Source: a virus. From it: a stretch of DNA of 20,803 nt. Position 1 is the stretch's first letter. Every line of letters starts with the position of its first letter. Positions 1 through 20,803 of the stretch are shown here, one piece after another. The position numbers and the translations under genes were made by a program. Under the pieces are notes generated by a model. That model worked only from the letters and a program-made list of their open reading frames with translations. It was not told the DNA's origin and searched no databases. The DNA is taken from IMG/VR virus record IMGVR_UViG_3300025594_000069, positions 1-20,803 of that record; one strand, given 5' to 3'.

Positions 1-3000
1 TAATAAAATCTTGCGCCATGTTTGCCGAAATAACTCGGGTCATACGTGTCCAGCTCTCAAGACCGATGGCTGTAAAGTATTTATCCGACCACTTACGTGC
101 GCCGGCATCCATATACTCAGAGCCGTAGGATTGAGCCAAGGCTTCTTGAATTGCCGCTCTTCCGGCTGCACCGATCCGTTCAGCAAAGGCTTCTTGTTCT
201 TCCCTTGATTGCTTACTGATATAACCACGCCACGTTTTCATTGCGCTCTTAAAACCGTCCATATCTTTTGATCGAACGATTGGATTGCCTGCGTCAGTGA
301 GTGACGCCACTGTAGCAAAGAGTAATGTTGTTGCAAACTGAAGTGCGGCAACGTATGACTGGAACTTATTCCATTTAGGGTTAATATCAGCCCCTAATTG
401 GCCCATGTAGCTCAGCACTATGTTACGCGCCTGAGCTTGTTGTTTTGGGTTCATTTGTTCTATTAACGCTGCGGCTTCTGCCTCAACTAATGCATACTCA
501 GCGTGTTTAGTGGCTTGCTTTAGGTAAGCTTGAATCGCAACTGCTGGAGGTTGATAAAAACCTAATTCCTGCATCGCCTTCATGTCCATGTTTTTTAGCT
601 TACGCTGTAGCCTAGAATCAAACTTAGCGCCCACTACCTGAGCGTTCGGTATCGGCATCTCGTCAACAAACGCGCCTTCGTTTTGCATCATTTTTTTGAA
701 AACTATCTTCGCTTCACGTTTCGATAGTCCCGCTTTTTCAAGTTCAGCAAGCATCGCAACTGGGTTTTCGGCCATTGCCCTGGTGTTGTAAACAATAGGG
801 AAATAGTTCTGTATAAATCCAATTTTCGGCAAGCGCTTTTGGAGGTAGTCTTTGTGGAACCTCTCAAAAAAACTCGCGAGTTGCTGACGCATTTTCGGAT
901 CTGCAGAGTCTTGGATTGGGACACCACGCTGCATCTCTTCAAGAACTTTAGACGAAAGCGCCTCATCTTCCCCAATTATTTCGCTGTACTGCGCGTTCCA
1001 CTTGTCCATAGAGTGGTTACGTCTGTTCAGCATATCCCCGTCCTTTCCAGCTTCTTGGCTACGTTTGTAGAAAAGATTGGCGAATGCGGGGCCATTTTTG
1101 CCTAGACGCGTGCGTGCATACTGGTCAGCAGACAATGTTAATTTCAACATCTGCGACACTGTATCACTCCCCCACATCTGACTTAATAGTTCTGTCAGTT
1201 TAGCAACTGCCCTAGAATCAATTATGTCGGCAATAGCCATTGCAATTGGATCTTCGGAGAACTGCTTAAAGTCTGGGGCCTTCTTCTTTTTAAGGTTGGA
1301 GCTTTTTGCATATGCCGCTCGTTTTTGGGAGCGAGGGGCCGCTTTATTTTTGCTACTAGTGACAAACTCTGCGCCACCCACCAAAACAAAATTGACAGAC
1401 CCATCAGGTTTTTTGCCGGCAACTTCATCTAAGAACTGTTCAAAGGTTTCGTTTAACGTTCCACGTTCTTTTGTATCGCGCAATTGTTCGCGGGCTTTGT
1501 CAGACAAACCTTGTTCTAGCTGCGTCCTTACGAACTGCCTAGAACGATTGAAAATTTGCTGAACCTGTTTTGCTACCTTCTTAAAGAATGACTCAGAAAA
1601 GTCAGAGGGTTTGGTCGTTTGTTTCTTAGCCCATGCACTGACTTGGTCAGCAAACCACTCCTCGAAACCTGCGCTATCATCTGTGTAGGTGTACGCACCT
1701 GCGCTCTTAGTTAAACGCTCTTTGTCGAATTGCTTTTGCAACCTATCTTTTTGCGCTTGAGGAAGAGATGTCCACATGTCCCACATTACGATGTGGCCCA
1801 TTTCATGGCCAAGTATAAATAGTTGTTCTGCCTGCCTGTAAGCGTTATCCACCTTAAGCTTTTTCAGCACAATGTATCTTTGGCCTTTGTGCTGCACTAC
1901 CGCAGCCTTCGCCCCCCGCCTGAACACATTATCAGCGAGCTTTATAACTTCTGAAGGCATGCCGGTTGATGCAAGATCACTGCGGTAAACAATGTTAATC
2001 TTACCTTCAATGGATAATATTTTTCTAATTGCATCAACATATTCCATAAACATTGTAGGGACATCACCCCATGCCGTTGTGCCGTTTATAGGGTCATCGC
2101 CCCTTGCCTTTGTGCCGTTTTCGGAAGTCCGTTTTTTTGTTACTTTTGGTTTTGTTCCTTTTTTTGAAGAAGGGTTTATCGCATTACCGTCTTCATCGAA
2201 CATCCGTTTTTTGTTTTCGTCTGAGCGCGCCTGATTTTCGCTCATGATCGTAGTGTCAGTTTCTAAACTTGCATCTAATTTATCGTCGTTGATTTCATTT
2301 AACTCAGCCAACTCGTTTTCTGCATCTAGAAGTAACTGTTGTGTTTTGGCGCTGTCTTTAGCTGATTTTAGTTTCTCAATCCGCTCTTCCAGTTTTATAG
2401 TTCTAGACTCTCTCCCCGCTTCGCCATCAAACGCTGACCCTTCCTTTGTATCTTTTCGTTCAGCCCACGCGTCTTGGAGGTCACCCCATGTGTACGTTTT
2501 ACCACTAGCTTTTGCAAGAACTGTTTCTCGAGGCAGGCTGTTAAGGTCAATTTTGAACCCCCGTCCAGCGAGCTCCTGGTTCATTCGTAAAAAACCTGAC
2601 ATAAGCAGCTGTGGATATGTCATGTTAGACGCGTTAGCCTTATCCTTATTGTTGGCGCGCTCACCAGCTTTTGTCAATTCTATTGGGGCTAAAGTAGTTT
2701 CGTTACCTTGCGGATCTGTTGCTGGTAAAGTGCGGTCTGCACCTTCAGCTAGCATACCTTTAACTGCTTTCTTTAAGCCTTCATCTACAATCTCGCTGAC
2801 GTCGAAGCTGCTCTCTACGACCTCTTCAACAAATGACATGCCGTCTTTTTGTACAATTCTGTATTGCCTGCCAGGGTTTTCTTCTTGCAGTTTTGCCATT
2901 TTGCCTTTGACAGCTTTACTGTTGAGCTTATACCCATCGCCTTTTTGATTCTTGCCGATAAGACGTTCTTGATAACCTTGAGGCTGCTCTTCCAATTCTC

Positions 3001-4738
3001 CTTGCAGAGTCCGCTGCTCAGTAGCGCCTGCTTCGGGTAGAGTACTCGCCTGCTCGAGTGTGTCGTTGAATATCTCACGTTCGATCTCTGTCTTACCATC
3101 GCTTTCTGTTTCTTGCTTACCCGCAGCCTTCTTTTGAGCTTGGCGCATTAGAACCATAAACTTATTTGCGCCCATTTCGTCAGCACGCCTGTTTAACTCT
3201 TGTACCGCAGCTGCAGCTTCCGGGTTTCCTTCTGGGTCAACAGCACTAGGATTACCATTCTCATCTGTTGGCATTACTGCTAAGAGATCGGCCAGTGGTG
3301 TTTGAGATATGTTAGCGGGGCTAAATTGAGCCTTGCGTTTTGCCTGTTCTAGTACAGATAAATTTTCGCCGCCCATTGTGGCCATGCCAGCTGATCTTGT
3401 TTCATCGCCTGGAACAAACGTTCGGCCTTGTCTAGGTTGAGGTCCACTTAGTAACTGTTGTTCCTCTGGGGTTACTTCTTTTTCCGTTGGGTTTTTTTGA
3501 TCACGCCGTTCAGATAGAATCCGTGCGGTTTCATCAGCAGTACTGTTGATTTGGCCCAGAACGTTTCCAGCAAGTTTGCCCGATGATGCCAACGACTTAC
3601 CTGCAACGAAACCTGCAAATGCTGCTTCGGACATTCGCATCGTTGCACTTTTGATATCGTAGTTAGGGTCTTGGATAAATCGCTGAGCGATCATCAAACC
3701 TGTTTGACCTGTTTCTGCTCCTAATTCTTTTAGACCCTGAACGCCGCCAGCTTTGAGCACACCGCCTGTTAAATTGCGTAGATACTTGCCTTTCTTTATG
3801 TGATTGCCACCGACCAAACCTTTTATTGATTTGTAGAACGCGAGTTCTGGCAGAACGTCCATTACAGCAAAAGGCACGCCCATAGCAAACGCTAGCTGGG
3901 CTGCATCCTCCTTCTCTATATCAGATTCCATCGATTCGCTGAATGAAGACGCCGCGCCTTGCACGTAACCTGAACCGAGGGCACCTATTTTACCTCCCGT
4001 TTTTGCTCCTTTTACGCCGAATTTTTTTGTTGCTTGTCCTGCTGCCGTTCTCTTTATTGCATCTTGCGCAATCTTAATTTGATCAGGGGTTGCGAGGCCT
4101 TTAGAATAATCTTTGATCGCTTTTGTTACAGCACGTTTGACTTGGCCTTTGGCAACAAGGCTCCCGACGGCACCGGGCACCGCGCCAACGCCACCAGTTG
4201 ACATCCCGCCTGTTACAAAACCAGCTACTGTCCACGCAAGTGAATCGACTGCTGAGGGTATGGCTTGGTTAGCAGTGTATGTGACGAGTTCCCCAAAATC
4301 GCTGAGCAAATCCACCGCGTTCTTGTTCCCATCAACACCTTTGTATGAATTAGATACGTCGCCAACAAAATCTTCAAACTTGACAAGATGCTGACTTATT
4401 CGTGAAGCCTGGCTGTCTTTGACTGCGGCTCTTTCCATGAGTTCGGCACCCTCTTCGTTATCACCAACGAGATAGTTGCCTGCGGCTCTAAATGTAAGGT
4501 ACGAGGACTGTAGTCCTTTCCAACCTGCTGCCCGCCCCGCCTCACTGGCCGATAAGCCAGTAGGCGTAATAGTATTGCCGTTCTTTTGATCGACTTTTAA
4601 CGAGGCTATCCTGCCTTTTAGATCCTCTATACCTTTACGTTCTTTTTTCCTTGATTCCTCTAAATTACCGCGTAATTGTTGACTAAGAGTTTGTAACTCC
4701 TCTGTAGACATGTTCTTCGGATCAAAGTTAGTAGCCAT
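1..4738 (-). CDS. Giant internal-virion/ejection (polyvalent-type) protein with metallopeptidase motif, C-terminus cut by window edge
   Basis: One uninterrupted frame of 1579 codons runs from ATG at 4738 off the left edge; the stretches I checked codon by codon have no stop. It begins 2 bases after the upstream gene's stop. The N-terminal third has Gly/Ala-rich hydrophobic stretches (about residues 150-195 and 245-300), as in phage proteins that cross membranes. Residues about 370-900 are low-complexity and Gln/Glu/Lys-rich. A zinc-binding HEMGH motif (residues 978-982) is followed by FEEWFADQ (1025-1032), whose acidic residues could supply the third zinc ligand. Beyond about 1280, FIQNYFPIVYN and a later segment ending SLTDAGNPIVRS (about 1480) resemble conserved stretches of large phage polyvalent proteins. 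Inference: it is packaged in the capsid, ejected with the DNA, and the peptidase acts on the envelope or on host or virion proteins. The family is judged from motifs only. Confidence 0.9.
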   Translation of the reverse strand, partial: MATNFDPKNMSTEELQTLSQQLRGNLEESRKKERKGIEDLKGRIASLKVDQKNGNTITPTGLSASEAGRAAGWKGLQSSYLTFRAAGNYLVGDNEEGAELMERAAVKDSQASRISQHLVKFEDFVGDVSNSYKGVDGNKNAVDLLSDFGELVTYTANQAIPSAVDSLAWTVAGFVTGGMSTGGVGAVPGAVGSLVAKGQVKRAVTKAIKDYSKGLATPDQIKIAQDAIKRTAAGQATKKFGVKGAKTGGKIGALGSGYVQGAASSFSESMESDIEKEDAAQLAFAMGVPFAVMDVLPELAFYKSIKGLVGGNHIKKGKYLRNLTGGVLKAGGVQGLKELGAETGQTGLMIAQRFIQDPNYDIKSATMRMSEAAFAGFVAGKSLASSGKLAGNVLGQINSTADETARILSERRDQKNPTEKEVTPEEQQLLSGPQPRQGRTFVPGDETRSAGMATMGGENLSVLEQAKRKAQFSPANISQTPLADLLAVMPTDENGNPSAVDPEGNPEAAAAVQELNRRADEMGANKFMVLMRQAQKKAAGKQETESDGKTEIEREIFNDTLEQASTLPEAGATEQRTLQGELEEQPQGYQERLIGKNQKGDGYKLNSKAVKGKMAKLQEENPGRQYRIVQKDGMSFVEEVVESSFDVSEIVDEGLKKAVKGMLAEGADRTLPATDPQGNETTLAPIELTKAGERANNKDKANASNMTYPQLLMSGFLRMNQELAGRGFKIDLNSLPRETVLAKASGKTYTWGDLQDAWAERKDTKEGSAFDGEAGRESRTIKLEERIEKLKSAKDSAKTQQLLLDAENELAELNEINDDKLDASLETDTTIMSENQARSDENKKRMFDEDGNAINPSSKKGTKPKVTKKRTSENGTKARGDDPINGTTAWGDVPTMFMEYVDAIRKILSIEGKINIVYRSDLASTGMPSEVIKLADNVFRRGAKAAVVQHKGQRYIVLKKLKVDNAYRQAEQLFILGHEMGHIVMWDMWTSLPQAQKDRLQKQFDKERLTKSAGAYTYTDDSAGFEEWFADQVSAWAKKQTTKPSDFSESFFKKVAKQVQQIFNRSRQFVRTQLEQGLSDKAREQLRDTKERGTLNETFEQFLDEVAGKKPDGSVNFVLVGGAEFVTSSKNKAAPRSQKRAAYAKSSNLKKKKAPDFKQFSEDPIAMAIADIIDSRAVAKLTELLSQMWGSDTVSQMLKLTLSADQYARTRLGKNGPAFANLFYKRSQEAGKDGDMLNRRNHSMDKWNAQYSEIIGEDEALSSKVLEEMQRGVPIQDSADPKMRQQLASFFERFHKDYLQKRLPKIGFIQNYFPIVYNTRAMAENPVAMLAELEKAGLSKREAKIVFKKMMQNEGAFVDEMPIPNAQVVGAKFDSRLQRKLKNMDMKAMQELGFYQPPAVAIQAYLKQATKHAEYALVEAEAAALIEQMNPKQQAQARNIVLSYMGQLGADINPKWNKFQSYVAALQFATTLLFATVASLTDAGNPIVRSKDMDGFKSAMKTWRGYISKQSREEQEAFAERIGAAGRAAIQEALAQSYGSEYMDAGARKWSDKYFTAIGLESWTRMTRVISANMAQDFI

Positions 4739-7102: not shown

Positions 7103-7852
7103 CTAACTTATTCCGAAGCCAATAATTTGACCTATTGTTTGCATGTTGGATGCGTGGGCTGCTGCCTTATCGCGCTGATATTGAGATTCTCTCGATGCCT
7201 CCATACCCGCAGCGCTGCCTAACCCGCCCATGGCTACGCCTAGCTGCTCCTTACCCATGCCCAAAAGTGAGGCTTTAAGACCTAAGTTGCGGTCCCTTTG
7301 ATCGAGTACCGAGTTGTTAACTGCGCCAGTAAAACTCGCTGCGTTACCCACGGAATTCATACGCTGCTGTGAGGCCTTCTGGGCGCCCGTCATGTTTGCG
7401 CCGTAACGGCTCAACGAACGTTGCTGCATGCCGGCAGAAACCTGCTGACCAAGCGCCTGAGACGACTTAGCGTCATCGATCATCTTCGTGCTGTTAGTGT
7501 CCGCTAACAATTCTTCTTCAGTACCGCCATATACCTCTAGATAGTTCGCAAGCTCGTCGCGCGATATATTCGCGAGGGTGTCCGAAGCACTAGGCCCCTC
7601 CGGAACTTGGGCAGCAGGCTGCTCGTTGTTGTTGTTGTTGTTGTTGTTGCTGCTGCTGTTGTTGTTGTTAGTAGACGTCTTGTTAGAAACGAGGCTATTG
7701 TTGACGGGCTTCGTCCCATAAGTATTGCCCGGGGGCCCACCGTTGGTATAGTTTCTGCCTGGGGGTCCATTCGCAGTAGGAACACTAGGCGCACCGAGCG
7801 TATCTTTTTTTGCGCTTGGGTCCATAAAGCTTTTTATGATCTTACCTAACAT
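7103..7852 (-). CDS. 249-residue probable internal virion protein with poly-Asn/Ser linker
   Basis: The ATG at 7852 follows AAAGGGG and lies 2 bases beyond the previous stop. The product has three parts. A Pro/Gly-rich N-terminus (about residues 20-55) is followed by an Asn4-Ser3-Asn8 linker (about 62-76) encoded by a trinucleotide repeat. A helical C-terminal half (about 130-249) contains RYGANMTGAQKASQQRMNSV, LDQRDRNLGLKASLLGMGKEQ and a Gly/Ala/Met-rich tract ending in a short hydrophobic tail. A helical region of this kind, starting with an R-YG motif, is common in small internal or ejection proteins of podoviruses. Inference: it is part of the DNA-ejection machinery together with its neighbours. 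The name is uncertain but the gene is secure. Confidence 0.85.
   Translation of the reverse strand: MLGKIIKSFMDPSAKKDTLGAPSVPTANGPPGRNYTNGGPPGNTYGTKPVNNSLVSNKTSTNNNNSSSNNNNNNNNEQPAAQVPEGPSASDTLANISRDELANYLEVYGGTEEELLADTNSTKMIDDAKSSQALGQQVSAGMQQRSLSRYGANMTGAQKASQQRMNSVGNAASFTGAVNNSVLDQRDRNLGLKASLLGMGKEQLGVAMGGLGSAAGMEASRESQYQRDKAAAHASNMQTIGQIIGFGIS
7625..7669. repeat. 45-bp trinucleotide microsatellite, (GTT)8(GCT)3(GTT)4
   Basis: Fifteen uninterrupted trinucleotide units lie inside the 249-residue gene. On the coding strand they read four AAC, three AGC, then eight AAC codons, giving Asn4-Ser3-Asn8. All units keep frame, so slippage would change only linker length. Confidence 0.95.
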
Positions 7853-15423: not shown

Positions 15424-17223
15424 CTATGCACTCATCGCTGATTTACTGCGGTTAGGGGCCATGAGTCCTGGGAGCTTATCTCTCCAAGACTCTTCAATTA
15501 TTTTTTGGTCTACAACAGTGGACATCTCAGACATCATTAGTCCGATCCAAGCTAAACCATCCACTTGGTCATCATGTACGCCGTTAGGAAATCGCAACAT
15601 CTCTGCCATTAATCCTGCATTCCACAGTTGGAACTTAGGAAAAAACACCATGCCTTGTTGCATACGGCCCTGAATCGCACGAGCACGAGCTTCTTTATCT
15701 CTGCGCCCCGTTTTCAGCTCCATCAAATACATTTCATACAGATTACGTTCTTTAATTCGCTTCTTTAGGAAAGGCCCAAGCGCCATTTCAATGTGTCCAC
15801 GCTCGATACCAACGATCGACGGGCGGTATTCTTCGTAGACGTCGAGAATCTTCTCAACCAACTCGAAACCGTCCCATTTACCTCGCTCAACGTGCATCAC
15901 ATACATCTTATCTTCTTGGTCTACACCCACAACGACGCCCACAGAGAAGTCATTTCGGTCTGCTTTACCAATCGCAAGGTCCCATGCGCAATACACCTTG
16001 AGTTTTTTGTTCTCTAGGGATTTGTCTTTGTAATATTGGAACATTCCTAATTTGAAATATTCACCTTCGTCGGCCACTGGGTTCTGCTGGTACAATGCGG
16101 ACCAGTCACGAGGGCCTACAGCCTTCTGTATGCGCATTAGCGCGTCGGAGTCATAACGGGCAGGATGCAACGGTTCGTGCTTCTTACGGTACTTCTCGTC
16201 CTCCTCAGCGATGGCTGGGTACTTGATGACTTCCCAAGAGTCGCCGCCGTCTTTTTCTTGCTCTAATAACCACCCTGCAAGGTCGTCATCGTGCCAACGC
16301 GTTAGGATAACGAGGATGCCACCGCCCGGCGCGAGACGCGTATAGGCCGTTGAGGTATACCAATCCTTCGCGGTTTGGCGAGCGGTCTCCGATTCAGCCT
16401 GCTCCCGGTTCTTTACCGGGTCATCGATCACTAATATATGGGCACCTTTACCCGTAATTGGTCCACCAACACCTGCTGCGACGTAACCACCGCCTTCGGT
16501 CGTTAGCCATTGCTCAGCGCCCTGCGATTCGGGGTCTAATCGAGTTTTAAACAACGATTGGTACTGCTGATCACGCAAAAAGCCACGTACTTTGCGCGAA
16601 AACCCCATGGCCAACGAGCCAGAGTAGGAACACGCGATGAATTCGTGGTTTGGGTAGCGCCCAAGGTGCCATGCGGGGAAGGTTTTTGAGGCCAGCTCAC
16701 TCTTACCATGGCGCGGTGGCATAAATAGCATGAGTCGGGGGGACTTTTTCTCCGCCACATCTTCTGAAAACTTTTCCAGGCGCAGGCAGATGTCTTTATG
16801 CACCCATCCTGGGATGTAACTGTCGTTGAATCGCTGAACAAAAGGCAACAGGTGCCTCCGAGCCAGCTCGCGCTTAGCCAATTCTGCTTGTGCAGCCATC
16901 TTAGGGTCGAAAACACCGCTTTCGTCTGTAAAATCTGGCTGTTTTCCTAAGTCTTGTTTTTCCAACGTATCCCGTTCCGACTGTTTTAAACGTTTTTTGT
17001 GTAAAAGTTTGCCGGTGTGAGCCAGTTGGGCTTTTTGCTCGGCTTGCTTTTCCTTCAAATACTTTTTATGCCGCTTTGGGTCGGCAATAATGGCTTGAAA
17101 CGCACGGCGCTCGCCGAAATTCTTGCACTTTGAGCAAACGGTCGGCGCGCTATTGGCATCGAACAACGTGTGTGGTCGATCTTCGTTGCAGTAAGAGCAC
17201 TTTTTAGTGTCCCTCTTCTCCAT
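15424..17223 (-). CDS. terL: Terminase large subunit with N-terminal zinc ribbon (599 aa)
   Basis: I start at ATG 17223 (MEKRDTKKCSYC), with GGAGG upstream inside the terS end; the frame is open further up but that would overlap terS more. Residues 9-33 carry CxxC-N17-CxxC, a likely zinc ribbon. The ATPase has Walker A MPPRHGKSE (168-176), Walker B HILVIDDP (262-269) and coupling motif VILTRWHDDDLAGW (about 305-318). The RNase H-like nuclease has CAWDLAIG (Asp 415), VGIERG (Glu 474) and HDDQVDGLAW (Asp 551, 552, 555). All needed motifs are present. It is the packaging motor and DNA cutter. The zinc ribbon plus about 120 charged residues before the ATPase is longer than in many TerL proteins. 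Confidence 0.96.
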   Translation of the reverse strand: MEKRDTKKCSYCNEDRPHTLFDANSAPTVCSKCKNFGERRAFQAIIADPKRHKKYLKEKQAEQKAQLAHTGKLLHKKRLKQSERDTLEKQDLGKQPDFTDESGVFDPKMAAQAELAKRELARRHLLPFVQRFNDSYIPGWVHKDICLRLEKFSEDVAEKKSPRLMLFMPPRHGKSELASKTFPAWHLGRYPNHEFIACSYSGSLAMGFSRKVRGFLRDQQYQSLFKTRLDPESQGAEQWLTTEGGGYVAAGVGGPITGKGAHILVIDDPVKNREQAESETARQTAKDWYTSTAYTRLAPGGGILVILTRWHDDDLAGWLLEQEKDGGDSWEVIKYPAIAEEDEKYRKKHEPLHPARYDSDALMRIQKAVGPRDWSALYQQNPVADEGEYFKLGMFQYYKDKSLENKKLKVYCAWDLAIGKADRNDFSVGVVVGVDQEDKMYVMHVERGKWDGFELVEKILDVYEEYRPSIVGIERGHIEMALGPFLKKRIKERNLYEMYLMELKTGRRDKEARARAIQGRMQQGMVFFPKFQLWNAGLMAEMLRFPNGVHDDQVDGLAWIGLMMSEMSTVVDQKIIEESWRDKLPGLMAPNRSKSAMSA

Positions 17224-17716
17224 TGCTAGCCTCCACTTCCTCAAATACACCATCGATCGTTGAATTAGGGTCAAAATGGGTGTCACCCAGCCCTGCCAAC
17301 CTTAATAAATCTGCATCTGATGCGGCTTCTATGTGTCGCTCAGAATTTATATTTACACTAATCGTCTGTATCTTTTGTGGCTCGTAGAGGCCATGCATTT
17401 TTGCAATCTCTCTTAGTGCTGCGACTTCTTCCGTTGAGCTACCACTCTTTCTGTGGGCCTCAAAAAATAATTTAGTAATACTTTCCCGCGTCACCGCAAT
17501 GCGATCGAACTCTTTCTCTCGAAAGTAGGTCAACGTGCGTTGTATCACGGCATTGTTCACCAACTTTGATGAATTAGCCTGCGAATACCCTGCTTGTTTG
17601 CCTGCCTCAGTGGTCGAATACCCGAGCAAGTAAAAACGAACAAATTGTTCTTGCTGTTTCGTCAACTTCGGCAGCACTTTGTGCCCTTCTTCAAAGGCAT
17701 CTTCTGAAATTTCCAT
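17204..17716 (-). CDS. terS: Terminase small subunit (170 aa)
   Basis: ATG at 17716 begins MEISEDAFEEGHKVLPKLTK. LTKQQEQFVRFYLLGYSTTEAGKQ followed by AGYSQ is the helix-turn-helix start of the Terminase_2-type small subunit ('T-kQ..Fv..Yl..g....A...aGYs'). A central helical oligomerisation region follows (about 60-115, including EEVAALREIAKMHGLYEPQK). An acidic, flexible C-terminus overlaps the terL start by 20 bases. Role: recognises the packaging site and loads TerL. No strong SD is seen; instead a 17-base dyad lies 11 bases upstream of the start, so its synthesis may be controlled there. Confidence 0.88.
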   Translation of the reverse strand: MEISEDAFEEGHKVLPKLTKQQEQFVRFYLLGYSTTEAGKQAGYSQANSSKLVNNAVIQRTLTYFREKEFDRIAVTRESITKLFFEAHRKSGSSTEEVAALREIAKMHGLYEPQKIQTISVNINSERHIEAASDADLLRLAGLGDTHFDPNSTIDGVFEEVEASNGEEGH

Positions 17717-17727
17717 ACTTAACGGCC

Positions 17728-17744
17728 TATAAGCACTGCTTATC
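17728..17744. promoter_or_regulatory. Dyad operator-like site between the HNH gene and terS
   Basis: TATAAGC-ACT-GCTTATC: arms match at six of seven positions. It fills most of the short gap between the HNH stop and the terS start, where a promoter or translational control element would lie. Confidence 0.65.
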
Positions 17745-17746
17745 TA

Positions 17747-18169
17747 TTATTCCGGTCTAACGCCGAATTTATGTTGAAACAATTGCCATGCAAAAAAGTC
17801 TACGTCTTCATCTCTAGCGACATTCTTGCAGTAGTTATACATGACACACACTACACGCGTGTTCTCTGGCGTATAACCTTGTGCGTTGTCCGAGCGATCC
17901 AAGCTAACCGAGAATGGATGCCTCACATACCTTTCGTCTTTACTGTAGTCAAAGGCGATCCCTGTTTTTGCACAACGATCGTTTTGCTCAGAAATTTTAG
18001 CTTCCATCCACTCTAACGTGATCGCGAATTCAAACCCCTTGAACGCCGCTCGTTTTCTAGCGGTGTTGAATACCTCTTTAGGTCTGCCAAGTTTGCTGTA
18101 GTAACGATCCTGCTGCCACAGCTTTTGTTGTTTTCTACGCTTCTCTACATCTCTCAATGGGTTCCACAC
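17747..18169 (-). CDS. HNH-like endonuclease upstream of the terminase genes (140 aa)
   Basis: The frame opens at GTG 18169; there is no SD and only a TATAAGC half-site just upstream, so the start (GTG here, TTG a few codons on) is uncertain. The first 50 residues are basic (KRRKQQKLWQQDRYYSKLGR). The core reads CAKTGIAFDYSK, then FSVSLDRSDNAQGYTPENTR, then VVCVMYNYCKN. 'SLDR.D...GYT..N.RVV' is a known HNH/endonuclease VII-like (His-Me finger) signature in phage proteins. The usual leading His of HNH is not obvious; the core Asp-Arg and later Asn are. HNH proteins beside terminase genes assist cleavage of packaging sites in several phages; a free-standing homing nuclease is the alternative. 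Confidence 0.8.
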   Translation of the reverse strand: MWNPLRDVEKRRKQQKLWQQDRYYSKLGRPKEVFNTARKRAAFKGFEFAITLEWMEAKISEQNDRCAKTGIAFDYSKDERYVRHPFSVSLDRSDNAQGYTPENTRVVCVMYNYCKNVARDEDVDFFAWQLFQHKFGVRPE

Positions 18170-18426
18170 AACGCTTATATTATATTAGCAGTGCTTATAA
18201 TAACATAATAAAAAATAAATTTGCATTTTTATATGCTCTATGACCGACGGGCGGGGGTTGGGTACTTTGTCTTGACCTACCCCCCTTCCCCGATTCCGAT
18301 ATTGGAACCTTGTTTTCAAATTTCGACTCTAGGGACCCCTACCGTTTTTCGCCCCTCGCTGCGCTCGTAGCGTTCGTTTTGTCTCTTTGTCAATTTTGAC
18401 TTCAAACATTCAAAGGATTACATCAC
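18170..18426. other. 257-base divergent gap between leftward packaging genes and rightward operon
   Basis: Holds the three phased half-sites at 18173-18199, an AT-rich stretch (18196-18235), a GC-rich hairpin at 18253-18285 (11-base stem with one mismatch and one wobble), a pyrimidine run, and the GC-rich CGCTGCGCTCG element near 18356. Both operons must start here. TTGACC at 18272 resembles a -35 box but its -10 partner is poor, so no promoter is called. A packaging (pac/cos) site could lie here because it borders the terminase genes. Confidence 0.55.
18173..18199. promoter_or_regulatory. Triple phased half-site operator-like element
   Basis: GCTTATA (18173), TATTAGC (18183) and GCTTATA (18193) start exactly 10 bases apart, forming two overlapping dyads with 3-base spacers. 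The last arm overlaps TATAAT on the plus strand (18196-18201), and the first arm is 4 bases from the HNH start. Suited to cooperative binding on one DNA face. Confidence 0.65.
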
Positions 18427-18606
18427 ATGACTAACTTACCCGCAGTTCAAACGTTTTACGCCGCACGTAAAGATGACAACCAGTTCGTGGTTACCGCCTA
18501 CGCTTTTGTAGTCGGTATGTTGCTACCGATCATCATCCCCTGTGTGATCGGCTACTTAGTAGGCATAGCAATCGTGGGCATGTTCACTAAGAAGAAGGGA
18601 GCATAA
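18427..18606 (+). CDS. 59-residue small membrane protein
   Basis: ATG at 18427 has AAAGGA 9 bases upstream. The product has a soluble N-terminus of about 19 residues (MTNLPAVQTFYAARKDDNQF). Residues 20-53 are almost purely hydrophobic with two prolines (VVGMLLPIIIPCVIGYLVGI), giving either one long or two short membrane segments. The end is basic (KKKGA). No family is recognised. It is the first gene of a rightward operon of three tiny membrane proteins with spacing of 2 bases or an overlap. Small size, hydrophobic core and basic tail are compatible with a holin-like or host-membrane-modifying role, but nothing proves it. Confidence 0.72.
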   Translation: MTNLPAVQTFYAARKDDNQFVVTAYAFVVGMLLPIIIPCVIGYLVGIAIVGMFTKKKGA

Positions 18607-18608
18607 CC

Positions 18609-18803
18609 ATGAAAGCATACAAGTTTACTAAGACCGTGGTGTGTATTGTTTTAACACTACTCATCATGTTCGTTGCGTTGTTCCACCTACAGGGCTTTGG
18701 CCTGTTGCTGATCATCACACTCCTAGTGTTAGACCGTGTGGTGTCGTACATCAACAAAGTGCAGGTGTGGTTCGCCATGCGTGCCTGGAGGAAGATGCTA
18801 TGA
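18609..18803 (+). CDS. 64-residue small membrane protein
   Basis: The ATG lies 2 bases after the previous stop, with AAGGGAG upstream (inside the previous gene), so translation is coupled. After MKAYKFTK there are two hydrophobic segments, residues about 9-27 (VVCIVLTLLIMFVALFHL) and 30-47 (GFGLLLIITLLVLDRVV). A basic/aromatic amphipathic end follows (INKVQVWFAMRAWRKML). The positive-inside rule favours both termini in the cytoplasm. No known family is recognised. It overlaps the next gene through ATGA, so the three membrane proteins are probably made together. Confidence 0.72.
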   Translation: MKAYKFTKTVVCIVLTLLIMFVALFHLQGFGLLLIITLLVLDRVVSYINKVQVWFAMRAWRKML

Positions 18804-18997
18804 ACCGCAGTACAACGCTCTTTGTCTACTCACTGATCACTGTCCTTACTGGCATCTTAGCCCTGCTGGATGCTCGTACTGCAGTGATCTTTGGTTGCTT
18901 CTGCCTTGTTCTTTGCGCCCTGCTTCTGGATGCGACTGAACAACAGCCTACCGTGCATGAACGTGTTCGTGCTTCTCGTGCAAGGAGAAGGCGCTGA
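18800..18997 (+). CDS. 65-residue small membrane protein with Arg-rich tail
   Basis: ATG at 18800 overlaps the upstream TGA (ATGA) and is preceded by GGAGG, so the shorter start is favoured over upstream in-frame starts. MNRSTTLFVYSLITVLTGIL and the next residues form one membrane segment (about 5-23). AVIFGCFCLVLCALLLDA forms a second (about 28-45) with several cysteines. The rest is polar and ends in RASRARRRR, a cytoplasmic basic anchor or nucleic-acid/ribosome-attracting tail. The hairpin topology (in-out-in) recalls small phage membrane proteins such as holins, but no match is claimed. An Arg-rich tail is the distinguishing feature. Confidence 0.7.
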   Translation: MNRSTTLFVYSLITVLTGILALLDARTAVIFGCFCLVLCALLLDATEQQPTVHERVRASRARRRR

Positions 18998-19023
18998 ACG
19001 CTCGTGCCTCGCGCGCAGCGTTC
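18996..19023 (+). repeat. GC-rich hairpin GAACGC...GCGTTC after the membrane-protein genes
   Basis: A six-base perfect stem (18996-19001 with 19018-19023) spans the stop codon of the third membrane protein; the loop is GC-rich. There is no U-tract, so probably not a terminator. The end (AGCGTTCGTT) recurs near 18369. Confidence 0.45.
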
Positions 19024-19062
19024 GTTGCGCATGGTGTCTTTATAACTAAAAGGAGTTAAGGC

Positions 19063-19233
19063 ATGTACGACATCGTACCCACAACCGGCGGACAAGATCC
19101 GTTGGATTTACTGCTAGAGCACGAAGCGTTAGCAGCATACCAATGGGACTGTGAGTTAGAAGCTGACAGCCCATTACAAAACCGCGAAGAGTTCATTCGC
19201 AACAACGCGCAACGTCGCGCAAACCAAGCTTAA
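19063..19233 (+). CDS. 56-residue acidic protein of unknown function
   Basis: ATG at 19063 follows a strong AGGAG (19051). The product, starting MYDIVPTTGGQDPLDLLLEH and continuing EALAAYQWDCELEADS, is acidic in the first 40 residues and has a basic end (REEFIRNNAQRRANQA). It is predicted mostly helical, soluble, with no membrane segment. It sits between the small membrane proteins and the 212-residue gene, 10 bases before the latter's start, so is in the same operon. No family is recognised. Small acidic phage proteins sometimes inhibit host enzymes; that is only a possibility. Confidence 0.7.
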   Translation: MYDIVPTTGGQDPLDLLLEHEALAAYQWDCELEADSPLQNREEFIRNNAQRRANQA

Positions 19234-19243
19234 GGAATTTACC

Positions 19244-19882
19244 ATGACTAAACTTAAAACTGCAGTTCAAACCGTGACCTTTGAAATGACCCCAGCTGTA
19301 CAGAGCTACTTGCAAGAGCAAATGGACTTTCTAGCCCAGCACGCCGTCAACCAGATCGGCACGATCGCCAACTATGCAAATATCGCAGGCTTTCAAGCAT
19401 TGCCAACGTTCCAGCAAATGTTCGGTGACGACTTCGGTCTGGCCAACGACAGTAACCAGCGTACGCTGAAGTACTGCGCGCAGACCGTTGCTAACTCGCC
19501 TGACATGCTAGTGCAGCTCAAGCCTTCGGGCAACGTGTATGGCGCTCAAGAAGCTGACGGCGTGCAACACACAGTGTTCAGCGACACAGATCGCAACAAG
19601 ATTCAGCTGTCTGACTTTGGCTACAAGGTCGTGACTGAAACTGCCGAGCGCTACGCAAAGACCATGACCGATTTAAGCATGCTCAATGCTAACTTCGGCA
19701 TCGTCCCCACCACCTCGCGCACTGAGCGTTATGAGTTGTTCGTTGCTAACGAGCACGCTAAGAAACGTTCAAAGCAAGAGATGCAATCTCGCACAGAGAG
19801 CAAGTTTGCAGAGAACAAGCAGCATAATGACTGCATCGTTCAACTGGTGAAAGTAGCACAAGCAACGTCGCACCTAGTCTAA
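19244..19882 (+). CDS. 212-residue soluble protein of unknown function
   Basis: ATG at 19244 has AAGGA 9 bases upstream. The product begins MTKLKTAVQTVTFEMTPAVQ, then has helical DFLAQHAVNQIGTIANYANI and AGFQALPTFQQMF. A mixed middle contains LKPSGNVYGAQEADGVQHTV and RNKIQLSDFGYKVVTETAER. A highly charged C-terminal helix follows (KKRSKQEMQSRTESKFAENK). There is no signal peptide, membrane segment or familiar catalytic motif. It is the last and largest gene of the rightward operon and ends right at a hairpin and a terminator. The composition is ordinary for a phage protein. Function unknown. Confidence 0.85.
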   Translation: MTKLKTAVQTVTFEMTPAVQSYLQEQMDFLAQHAVNQIGTIANYANIAGFQALPTFQQMFGDDFGLANDSNQRTLKYCAQTVANSPDMLVQLKPSGNVYGAQEADGVQHTVFSDTDRNKIQLSDFGYKVVTETAERYAKTMTDLSMLNANFGIVPTTSRTERYELFVANEHAKKRSKQEMQSRTESKFAENKQHNDCIVQLVKVAQATSHLV

Positions 19883-19890
19883 CGACTAGG
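19873..19890 (+). terminator. Hairpin on the stop codon of the 212-residue gene
   Basis: CCTAGTC-TAAC-GACTAGG is a perfect seven-base stem whose loop contains the TAA stop. Without a U-tract it may shield the mRNA 3' end or pause polymerase before the main terminator. Confidence 0.45.
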
Positions 19891-19898
19891 CACGATGG

Positions 19899-19925
19899 AA
19901 AAGGGCCAATTGGCCCTTTTTTTAT
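19899..19925 (+). terminator. Strong rho-independent terminator of the rightward operon
   Basis: AAAAGGGCC-AATT-GGCCCTTTT forms a perfect 22-base palindrome followed by more T residues on the plus strand (T-run 19917-19923). As it is self-complementary with A and T runs at either end it could work in both directions. Confidence 0.93.
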
Positions 19926-20031
19926 GCCCCGGTACAACGCGCGTTGGGCAGTGTGTGTTGTTGTGCCGATTATGGTGTACAATGAACGTTGTTCCATGCC
20001 AATAACCGTCGCGCCCAGCCCGCTGCGGCAG

Positions 20032-20048
20032 ATGTCGCATTTAGGACA
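20032..20048 (+). repeat. TGTCG-N6-GACA composite repeat, left copy
   Basis: ATGTCGCATTTAGGACA matches 20532-20548 at 15 of 17 bases and lies exactly 500 bases away. It is a weaker palindrome (ATGTC-N8-GACAT, taking the next base) than the right copy. Confidence 0.7.
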
Positions 20049-20071
20049 TTTAAGTACTCATTTTAAGACAA

Positions 20072-20085
20072 ACGAGCAGCGCGCA
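20072..20085 (+). repeat. GC-rich 14-mer repeat, copy 1 of 3
   Basis: ACGAGCAGCGCGCA. Copies 2 (ACGAGCAACGCTCA at 20355) and 3 (GCGAGCAGCGCGCA at 20556) are in the same orientation; consensus RCGAGCARCGCKCA. Confidence 0.7.
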
Positions 20086-20309
20086 TTATCAGTGTAAATG
20101 CTCTACAGGCCACGCGTAGTATACATAGTTGCTAATATCCCAATTATTGGGTTCAAAGAAGAGTCCACTTAGCATTCTACACAGTTACACCATACCTAAA
20201 AACGTCTTTAACATATGACCCTAAAATTTGTTCAATCTCCAACCACGATTTCGCTCTAGCCCTTTGGTACCAACACTTTCCGGATGGTTGGAAATGAGAT
20301 TCTCACTTT

Positions 20310-20327
20310 TCCACTTCCAACCCAAAA
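20310..20327 (+). repeat. 18-bp direct repeat, copy 1
   Basis: TCCACTTCCAACCCAAAA recurs exactly at 20372-20389 (62 bases apart), with a 13-base partial third copy at 20520-20532. It contains the CCAACCC core seen several times in this region. Confidence 0.9.
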
Positions 20328-20354
20328 TAATAACCTGTTATATATCAACGACCT

Positions 20355-20368
20355 ACGAGCAACGCTCA
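20355..20368 (+). repeat. GC-rich 14-mer repeat, copy 2 of 3
   Basis: ACGAGCAACGCTCA; differs from copy 1 at two positions and lies just before the second copy of the 18-bp repeat. Confidence 0.65.
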
Positions 20369-20371
20369 ATG

Positions 20372-20389
20372 TCCACTTCCAACCCAAAA
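20372..20389 (+). repeat. 18-bp direct repeat, copy 2
   Basis: Identical to 20310-20327. It runs directly into the palindrome AAAATGGCAGCCATTTT (20394-20410). Confidence 0.9.
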
Positions 20390-20478
20390 CACGAAAATGG
20401 CAGCCATTTTACGTCGTGAAACACTTTCGTGGAACATTATTAACATTAGCAAACGCTAACATGGTTACTTTTTAACCA

Positions 20479-20519
20479 GTTGGGTTGGTAATATGACGTT
20501 TTCTCAATACCAACCCAAC
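20479..20519. repeat. 12-bp perfect inverted repeat (stem-loop) built on CCAACCC
   Basis: GTTGGGTTGGTA (20479-20490) pairs with TACCAACCCAAC (20508-20519) around a 17-base loop. The arms carry the same CCAACCC core as the 18-bp direct repeats, here in both orientations. No U-tract follows, so a terminator is unlikely. Confidence 0.85.
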
Positions 20520-20531
20520 CTTCCAACCCAA

Positions 20532-20548
20532 ATGTCGTATTTACGACA
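20532..20548 (+). repeat. TGTCG-N6-CGACA composite repeat, right copy
   Basis: Contains TGTCGTATTTACGACA (20533-20548), a perfect 7-2-7 palindrome, followed 7 bases later by the third GC-rich 14-mer. A palindrome of this size suits a dimeric DNA-binding protein. Confidence 0.75.
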
Positions 20549-20555
20549 ATGACCA

Positions 20556-20569
20556 GCGAGCAGCGCGCA
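20556..20569 (+). repeat. GC-rich 14-mer repeat, copy 3 of 3
   Basis: GCGAGCAGCGCGCA. Like copy 1, it follows a TGTCG-type repeat, so copies 1 and 3 belong to a diverged composite element. Confidence 0.7.
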
Positions 20570-20596
20570 ATGAGCGTGGTTCATGGCACTTCACAC

Positions 20597-20625
20597 TTCA
20601 CAAAAGTCTTGCTTAATTATATAAG
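20597..20625 (+). promoter_or_regulatory. Sigma-70-like promoter for the rightmost gene
   Basis: TTCACA (20597-20602) and TATAAG (20620-20625) are separated by 17 bases; each hexamer matches consensus at five of six positions. The -10 box lies inside the left arm of the dyad at 20620. It is about 45 bases upstream of the start at 20671. An alternative (TTGCTT at 20609, TAATAT at 20632) is weaker. Confidence 0.7.
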
Positions 20626-20636
20626 CACGGCTAATA
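20620..20636. promoter_or_regulatory. Dyad operator-like site over the -10 box
   Basis: TATAAGC-ACG-GCTAATA, arms matching at six of seven positions. A further half-site TATAAGC sits at 20653-20659, 11 bases before the start codon. Binding here would block RNA polymerase, the usual position of a repressor operator. Confidence 0.7.
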
Positions 20637-20670
20637 TTAACCATCTACATTTTATAAGCAAGGAAAGAGC

Positions 20671-20803
20671 ATGGAACTAAGAAGCAATTGGGCCTACCCA
20701 GCACTACGTGAATGGGCCAAGAGGCAGAAAGTACCTAACGACCGTATTGATCGCATGATTATTAGGGCTCGGAAAGAGAAATTGCCGATGTGGGCAGTGG
20801 AAC
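20671..20803 (+). CDS. Rightward gene start, possible small DNA-binding protein, cut by window edge
   Basis: ATG at 20671 has AAGGA upstream. Forty-four codons are open to the edge: MELRSNWAYPALREWAKRQK, then VPNDRIDRMIIRARKEKLPM, then WAVE. The pattern of a basic helix, a short turn ('VPNDRI') and a second basic helix ending in 'LP.W' could be a helix-turn-helix of excisionase or Cro-like type, but the fragment is too short to name. It is expressed from the promoter at 20597 and sits beside the operator-like dyad, so autoregulation is possible. This is inference from position. Confidence 0.7.
   Translation, partial: MELRSNWAYPALREWAKRQKVPNDRIDRMIIRARKEKLPMWAVE

Follow-up and report, generated by a model that had tools for sequence, protein, structure and literature searches.

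Phage NrS-1 encodes a PrimPol that initiates at a biochemically defined site, TTTGGTTA (PMC8718748). Exactly one copy of this site is present in the NrS-1 genome, where it lies at the junction of two repeats inside a GGTTACACTTT array (NrS-1 17060-17450), directly 3' of the primase gene. SaPI and SCCmec (Cch2) elements likewise combine short element-specific repeats with a self-loading AEP/SF3-type initiator, and their arrays are located just downstream of the initiator gene (PMC7581432). In plasmid pRN1, which relies on the PrimPol-helicase initiator ORF904, the origin diverges between conserved flanks and is functional when moved elsewhere, a precedent for the movement of such an origin (PMC4234260).

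We analyzed a complete IMG/VR record of 20,803 bp (the window), the 3' end of which falls 133 bases into a gene. Close to this end lies an element that is likely to be an iteron-type replication origin of a probably temperate phage, served by a phage-encoded PrimPol-helicase. An iteron-type origin was not previously recognised in this phage group. The sequence-only reading of this DNA had proposed a candidate origin in which it recognised no known family; a relation to the iteron origins of AEP/SF3 initiators, of the SaPI, SCC and P4 kind, is nevertheless recognisable. As in NrS-1, repeats in both orientations form one dominant array per genome in an AT-rich stretch, and the initiators have homologous SF3/DUF5906 helicases. 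In contrast to NrS-1, the repeat sequence is another one, the N-terminal initiator halves lack detectable similarity, and the initiator gene lies about 5.8 kb downstream of the array. The element shares short specific repeats and the initiator type with SaPI and SCCmec. However, in SaPI and SCCmec a C-terminal domain reads the iterons and rep directly precedes the origin, whereas here the initiator diverges most in the region behind the primase core and its gene is far from the origin. Compared to the single 100-nt stem-loop of pRN1, the element has several short iterons forming several stems. Finally, the intergenic repeats of phages KPP25 and phiR18 (KPP25 26219-26894) occupy the same genome position class and run in both orientations, but they read TGTTACGAAAT / GTGACAAAA and include a three-fold 49-nt unit that is not seen in the window. 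The candidate origin would work like those of SaPI/SCC and NrS-1, but is distinctive in lying away from its initiator gene and in occurring as exchangeable alleles.

The minus strand of the window carries terminase, portal and capsid genes, and its terminase places the window closest, among annotated phages, to Aeromonas phage phiA008 and Pseudomonas phage KPP25. Also on the minus strand are a long internal-virion-type protein with a zinc-protease-like motif, LGHEMGHIV (2-4738, truncated at the window end), and a protein of the structural region with long asparagine/serine runs (7103-7852). A longer contig, G001 (35 kb), is identical to the window across the element region (925/925) and continues into early genes, which encode DNA polymerase A, an 863-aa initiator, a nuclease, a helicase, a CI-like HTH protein, an excisionase-like protein and an integrase. 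Since G001 encodes both the CI-like HTH protein and the integrase, the window phage is probably temperate. A second contig, G002 (63.7 kb), is a near-complete relative.

At the core of the element, a 12-base repeat, TTCCAACCCAAA, recurs in both orientations to form an array that is flanked by TGTCG-type palindromes at 20033 and 20533. Six sites with at most three mismatches to TTCCAACCCAAA occur in 410 nt, where the rest of the window predicts 0.40, and CCAACCCAA-type sites form a cluster at the element only. The locus thus holds a short repeat in several copies, clustered and unique to it, as in an iteron origin. Its features are as follows (window coordinates).

19899-19923, plus strand: terminator of the upstream 212-aa gene, a perfect GC-rich stem with a T-tract; left limit of the intergenic region
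20033-20548, no strand: putative origin module, from blastn and alignment with L008, L091, L090 and L021; at two different places in related phages
20033-20048, no strand: left edge motif TGTCGCATTTAGGACA, conserved at the same place in relatives
20101-20133, plus strand: conserved block CTCTACAGGCCACGCG...TATACATAGTTGCT, from the alignment of relatives
20237-20248, plus strand: degenerate iteron CTCCAACCACGA; its counterpart in L091 is TTCATAACCACGA
20244-20265, plus strand: conserved spacer core CACGATTTCGCTCTAGCCCTTT, confined to this phage group in an exact-pattern scan of viral contigs
20282-20293, minus strand: inverted, degenerate iteron TTCCAACCATCC, from mismatch count and alignment
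20315-20326, plus strand: iteron TTCCAACCCAAA, read from the sequence
20377-20388, plus strand: iteron TTCCAACCCAAA, read from the sequence
20416-20436, plus strand: conserved spacer GTGAAACACTTTCGTGGAACA, from the alignment of relatives
20463-20477, no strand: palindrome GGTTACTTTTTAACC, kept in L008 and L091, with base changes in L090 and L021
20479-20490, minus strand: inverted iteron TACCAACCCAAC, left arm of a 12-bp stem, read from the sequence
20508-20519, plus strand: iteron TACCAACCCAAC, right arm of the 12-bp stem, read from the sequence
20521-20532, plus strand: iteron TTCCAACCCAAA, read from the sequence
20533-20548, no strand: right edge palindrome TGTCGTATTTACGACA, adjoining the last iteron without a gap, likewise in aligned relatives
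20609-20637, plus strand: promoter-like TTGCTT-N17-TAATAT of the next gene, outside the module
20671-20802, plus strand: start of a conserved 82-aa early gene, complete at L083:9428-9676

The unit probably spans about 20033-20548, with conserved DNA beginning at about 19983. In the distant relative G009, CTCTACAGCCCCCGCC takes the place of CTCTACAGGCCACGCG. The region 20139-20548, reported earlier as gene-free, is indeed non-coding, as the ORFs inside it (57 to 63 aa) have no counterpart in G002 or G017. It is bounded by the terminator at 19899-19923, whose stem recurs behind the 212-aa gene in relatives, and by the promoter-like sequence at 20609-20637. The sequence-only reading had cited an adjacent promoter in favor of an origin. 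However, the promoter-like sequence stays with the next gene when the element sits elsewhere, and L086 and L013 have TTGACC-N17-TTATTA at the equivalent position. Because the promoter travels with the following gene and not with the element, it is not part of the module. A repeat of another kind, GACNNRCGAGCARCGCNCA, occurs at 20067-20085, 20350-20368 and 20551-20569 and is apparently a form of the GCGCA/CGTTG-rich spacer repeats that precede several small genes in these phages. The edge palindrome was also considered as a dispersed CI operator and discarded, a genome-wide search giving good matches only at the module edges. The pattern GTNTACATAGTTGCT matched many unrelated contigs and was hence unused.

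The sequence-only reading had based the origin on a chain of hairpins. The named structures are present, namely AAAATGGCAGCCATTTT at 20394-20410, the 12-bp stem 20479-20490/20508-20519 and TGTCGTATTTACGACA at 20533-20548, and the region folds far better than shuffled sequence, as the proposed folding-energy check required. For 20139-20548, the DNA fold energies are -46.6 kcal/mol (z -4.62) on the plus strand and -51.6 (z -3.89) on the minus strand, and the RNA fold reaches -90.4 (z -5.08); none of 100 shuffles folded as well. Perfect stems of at least 6 bp with a loop of at most 40 number 11, compared to 4.0 +/- 2.1 in shuffles, a count matched by 0/200 shuffles and by none of the tiled 410-nt stretches of the window. 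The excess is modest when only short stems are counted (at least 5 bp, loop of at most 20; 13 versus 7.8). Also as described, a terminator U-tract is lacking: there are no plus-strand terminator-like sites within the region, and a single weak minus-strand match at 20548-20533. However, the hairpins are mostly a by-product. The earlier reading overlooked that most of the longer stems stem from one motif, TTCCAACCCAAA, repeated in direct and inverted orientation; it is the concertedly changing iterons that are conserved, and not the hairpins as such. Single-strand initiation (ssi/PriA) sites were set aside as an explanation of the hairpins, since AAAATGGCAGCCATTTT is not conserved in the alignment of relatives and the repeats account for most longer stems. 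The GC-skew of G002, another suggested check, rises steadily with no turn at the element. Its AT-skew has a minimum near 36 kb, which is not an independent indication because it coincides with the point where the transcription direction changes.

The proposal of a candidate origin is thus supported in its conclusion by comparison with PrimPol phages, including NrS-1 with its biochemically defined initiation site in an equivalent array, while its reasoning from hairpins is right only in part. When each genome was scanned for its best bidirectional 9-mer array within 600 nt, one dominant array was found in the majority of the PrimPol phages covered: NrS-1 (13 copies), Stenotrophomonas phage S1 (11), Halomonas phage H4907 (10), Pseudomonas phages Turba and pAN (10 each), KPP25 (11) and the metagenomic contigs G009 (13), G010 (13), G011 (9) and G017 (10). 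None of the five non-PrimPol controls, a small set, had an array at the threshold used, with at most 8 copies. By this count the window array is modest, its 6 copies alone not exceeding the controls. No array was detected by k-mer scan in the PrimPol-helicase phages phiA008, KpTRp1 and Mcat7; phiA008 has only inverted repeats, within an AT-rich gap. In NrS-1, S1, Turba, pAN and H4907, the array lies directly 3' of the primase gene. The window repeat does not contain the NrS-1 initiation site, its other strand reading TTTGGGTTGG with only TTTGG in common, and the core AGCCTTAGTGC is common to KPP25 and L013/L088. These comparisons suggest, as a simple genomic signature of PrimPol-type phage origins, a single array in which a private repeat runs in both directions. 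They also provide a concrete candidate origin for KPP25-like and phiA008-like phages, since the records examined for them carry no annotation of where replication starts. Two annotated genes overlie iteron arrays, NRS1_29 of NrS-1 (L233:17055-17456) and gp2 of Stenotrophomonas phage S1 (L235:2454-2804), and are probably spurious ORFs. KPP25 carries a second cluster of its repeat TGTTACGAA, with four copies per orientation, at about 58000-58600 (L225:43001-43600), largely in the gap between gp88 and gp01; this cluster may be another origin or a region of the copy-control type.

At least eight related contigs have a recognisable version of the module, which occurs with several repeat alleles. 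The window and L008 have the repeat CTTCCAACCCAAA in common, while L091, L090 and L021 carry TTCRTGACCCAAA at homologous places, including inverted copies flanking the core CACGATTTCNCTCTAGCCCTTT. At homologous positions and in both orientations, the motif reads TTCCAACC in the window and L008 versus TTCRTGACC in L091, L090 and L021, with the spacers between conserved. Further alleles are GGTGACCAGCAAA in L086 and L088, CTGCCCCAGCAAA in L013, GGACAGCAAA in G017 and another in the distant G009. All repeats change in concert while the relatives retain the spacer blocks and the TGTCG-type edge motifs, and the last iteron abuts the right edge motif in all five aligned genomes. Such concerted change of dispersed sites between conserved spacers points to one sequence-specific factor as the reader.

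The module follows the 212-aa gene in the window, L086, L088, L013 and G017, and occupies the upstream divergent gap on the terS side in L091, L008, L090 and L021. Being present at two places without linked genes, it therefore moves as a unit. L008 and L090, from one metagenome, have flanks that are 100% identical on the left and 98-100% on the right, whereas the iteron part is 41-92% identical. Confined as it is to the module, this difference is a natural exchange of the module. An exchange between otherwise identical flanks resembles the immunity type, and the iterons could be operators bound by a transcription repressor for immunity and early-gene control, the alleles then being immunity groups. 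G001 does encode a CI-like HTH protein and an integrase, in keeping with a probably temperate phage, the promoter-like sequence at 20609 is 60 bp downstream, and iterons often regulate as well. However, the CI-like proteins of G001 and G002 are similar in their HTH segments, their genes lie far from the element and are oriented like early genes, and the module moves with neither a linked regulator gene nor the promoter at 20609. As equivalent arrays track the primase gene and not a repressor (NrS-1, S1, Turba, pAN and H4907), we regard an operator array as improbable.

In several relatives, terS is no more than about 2 kb from the module, and partition (centromere-like) or packaging (pac/cos) sites can carry repeats in both orientations. 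Such a role is very doubtful: despite their different repeats, the window and G002 have nearly identical small terminase subunits, the early regions examined contain no recognisable partition gene, and unrelated phages have their arrays with the primase. Subgroups carry the direct and inverted copies in opposite order, and G017 has the central block turned around, which better suits DNA sites than a single RNA fold. A structured non-coding RNA (e.g., a P4- or C4-type antisense RNA) is accordingly most unlikely, despite the strong RNA folding (z -5.1) and although a swap of the module alone would be workable if lock and key were both inside it; an Rfam search of 17500-20803 gave no match even at E 1, and a sigma-70 scan recognised no promoter inside the element.

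As an iteron-type origin, the element would be served by the 863-aa initiator of the near-identical G001 (L101:7316-9907). The helicase half of this protein is homologous to the ring helicase of NrS-1 PrimPol (6k9c; E=2e-17 by sequence, 4.7e-42 by profile), matches DUF5906 and belongs to the SF3 helicases of the NrS-1 CTR type. For the N-terminal part there is a match to phrog_3712, "replication origin binding," and its residues D113, D115, H180 and D226, invariant in 10 relatives, fit the AEP motif order. It is this evidence on which the name PrimPol rests for the N-terminal half, because its profile had no match to NrS-1 N300 or the PDB, and an AlphaFold model was too poor (pLDDT 39) and was discarded. 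In the initiator, an N-terminal part that is probably a primase/polymerase is fused to an NrS-1-type SF3 helicase. A peptide-pattern search of reference genomes for prophage copies of the initiator returned none. In G001 the element and the initiator gene are about 5.8 kb apart, and in G002 the element is in another gap; an origin beside its initiator gene is usual in known cases, yet not strictly defining.

Early genes were compared between G001, G002 and G017. The initiators of G001 and G002, which have different iterons, are 87% identical, but residues 243-335 are 31% different versus 11% elsewhere (scan permutation p<0.0005), the region having been picked after the divergence peak was seen. 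Between G002 and G018, taken from the same metagenome as L021 (G002-type repeats) and possibly one phage with it, the region is 8.6% different versus 6.0% elsewhere. In AEP PrimPols, a helix-bundle domain binds the recognition site (PMC8718748). Residues of about 243-335 would correspond to this domain by position and are the best candidate for the iteron reader, although the co-evolution of initiator and repeat is suggestive only and divergence of the helix-bundle region may partly reflect general rapid evolution. As nature offers a range of repeat alleles together with related initiators, it can be tested directly which part of a PrimPol reads the start site, likewise a question for NrS-1.

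The initiator is not the sole candidate reader because the small HTH protein (34% identical), the excisionase and the integrase vary too. Among the most variable genes, like the iterons, are those for the integrase, which has no match between G001 and G002, and for the excisionase-like protein (28%), and the edge palindromes look like recombination cores, as could be expected of an attachment or recombination site with arm-type repeats for these two proteins. This explanation carries little weight with us: in G001 the integrase gene does not adjoin the element, about 16 kb separating the two, and the edge motifs copy each other imperfectly instead of forming a single crossover site. Moreover, KPP25 has an equivalent array with no integrase annotated in the part examined, and arrays elsewhere adjoin the primase instead.

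For the iteron-type origin, we propose that the 863-aa initiator would bind the TTCCAACCCAAA iterons in either orientation (the opposite strand reading TTTGGGTTGG), assemble helicase rings there and open the DNA at the element, with primer or DNA synthesis beginning at or beside the iterons. More tentatively, the origins of this group could be cassettes that are exchanged between phages and exist as several repeat alleles, with a helix-bundle allele of the primase to match each one. Coexisting near-identical phages might thereby be split into replication-specificity classes, perhaps under selection from satellites or from superinfecting relatives, which could hijack the initiator if there were no such classes.

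The integrases of G001 (L101:17440-18630) and G002 (L102:5381-6550) are of different subfamilies and have no blastp match to each other. Their excisionase-like partners are divergent as well; the integration modules of these phages, too, are swapped.
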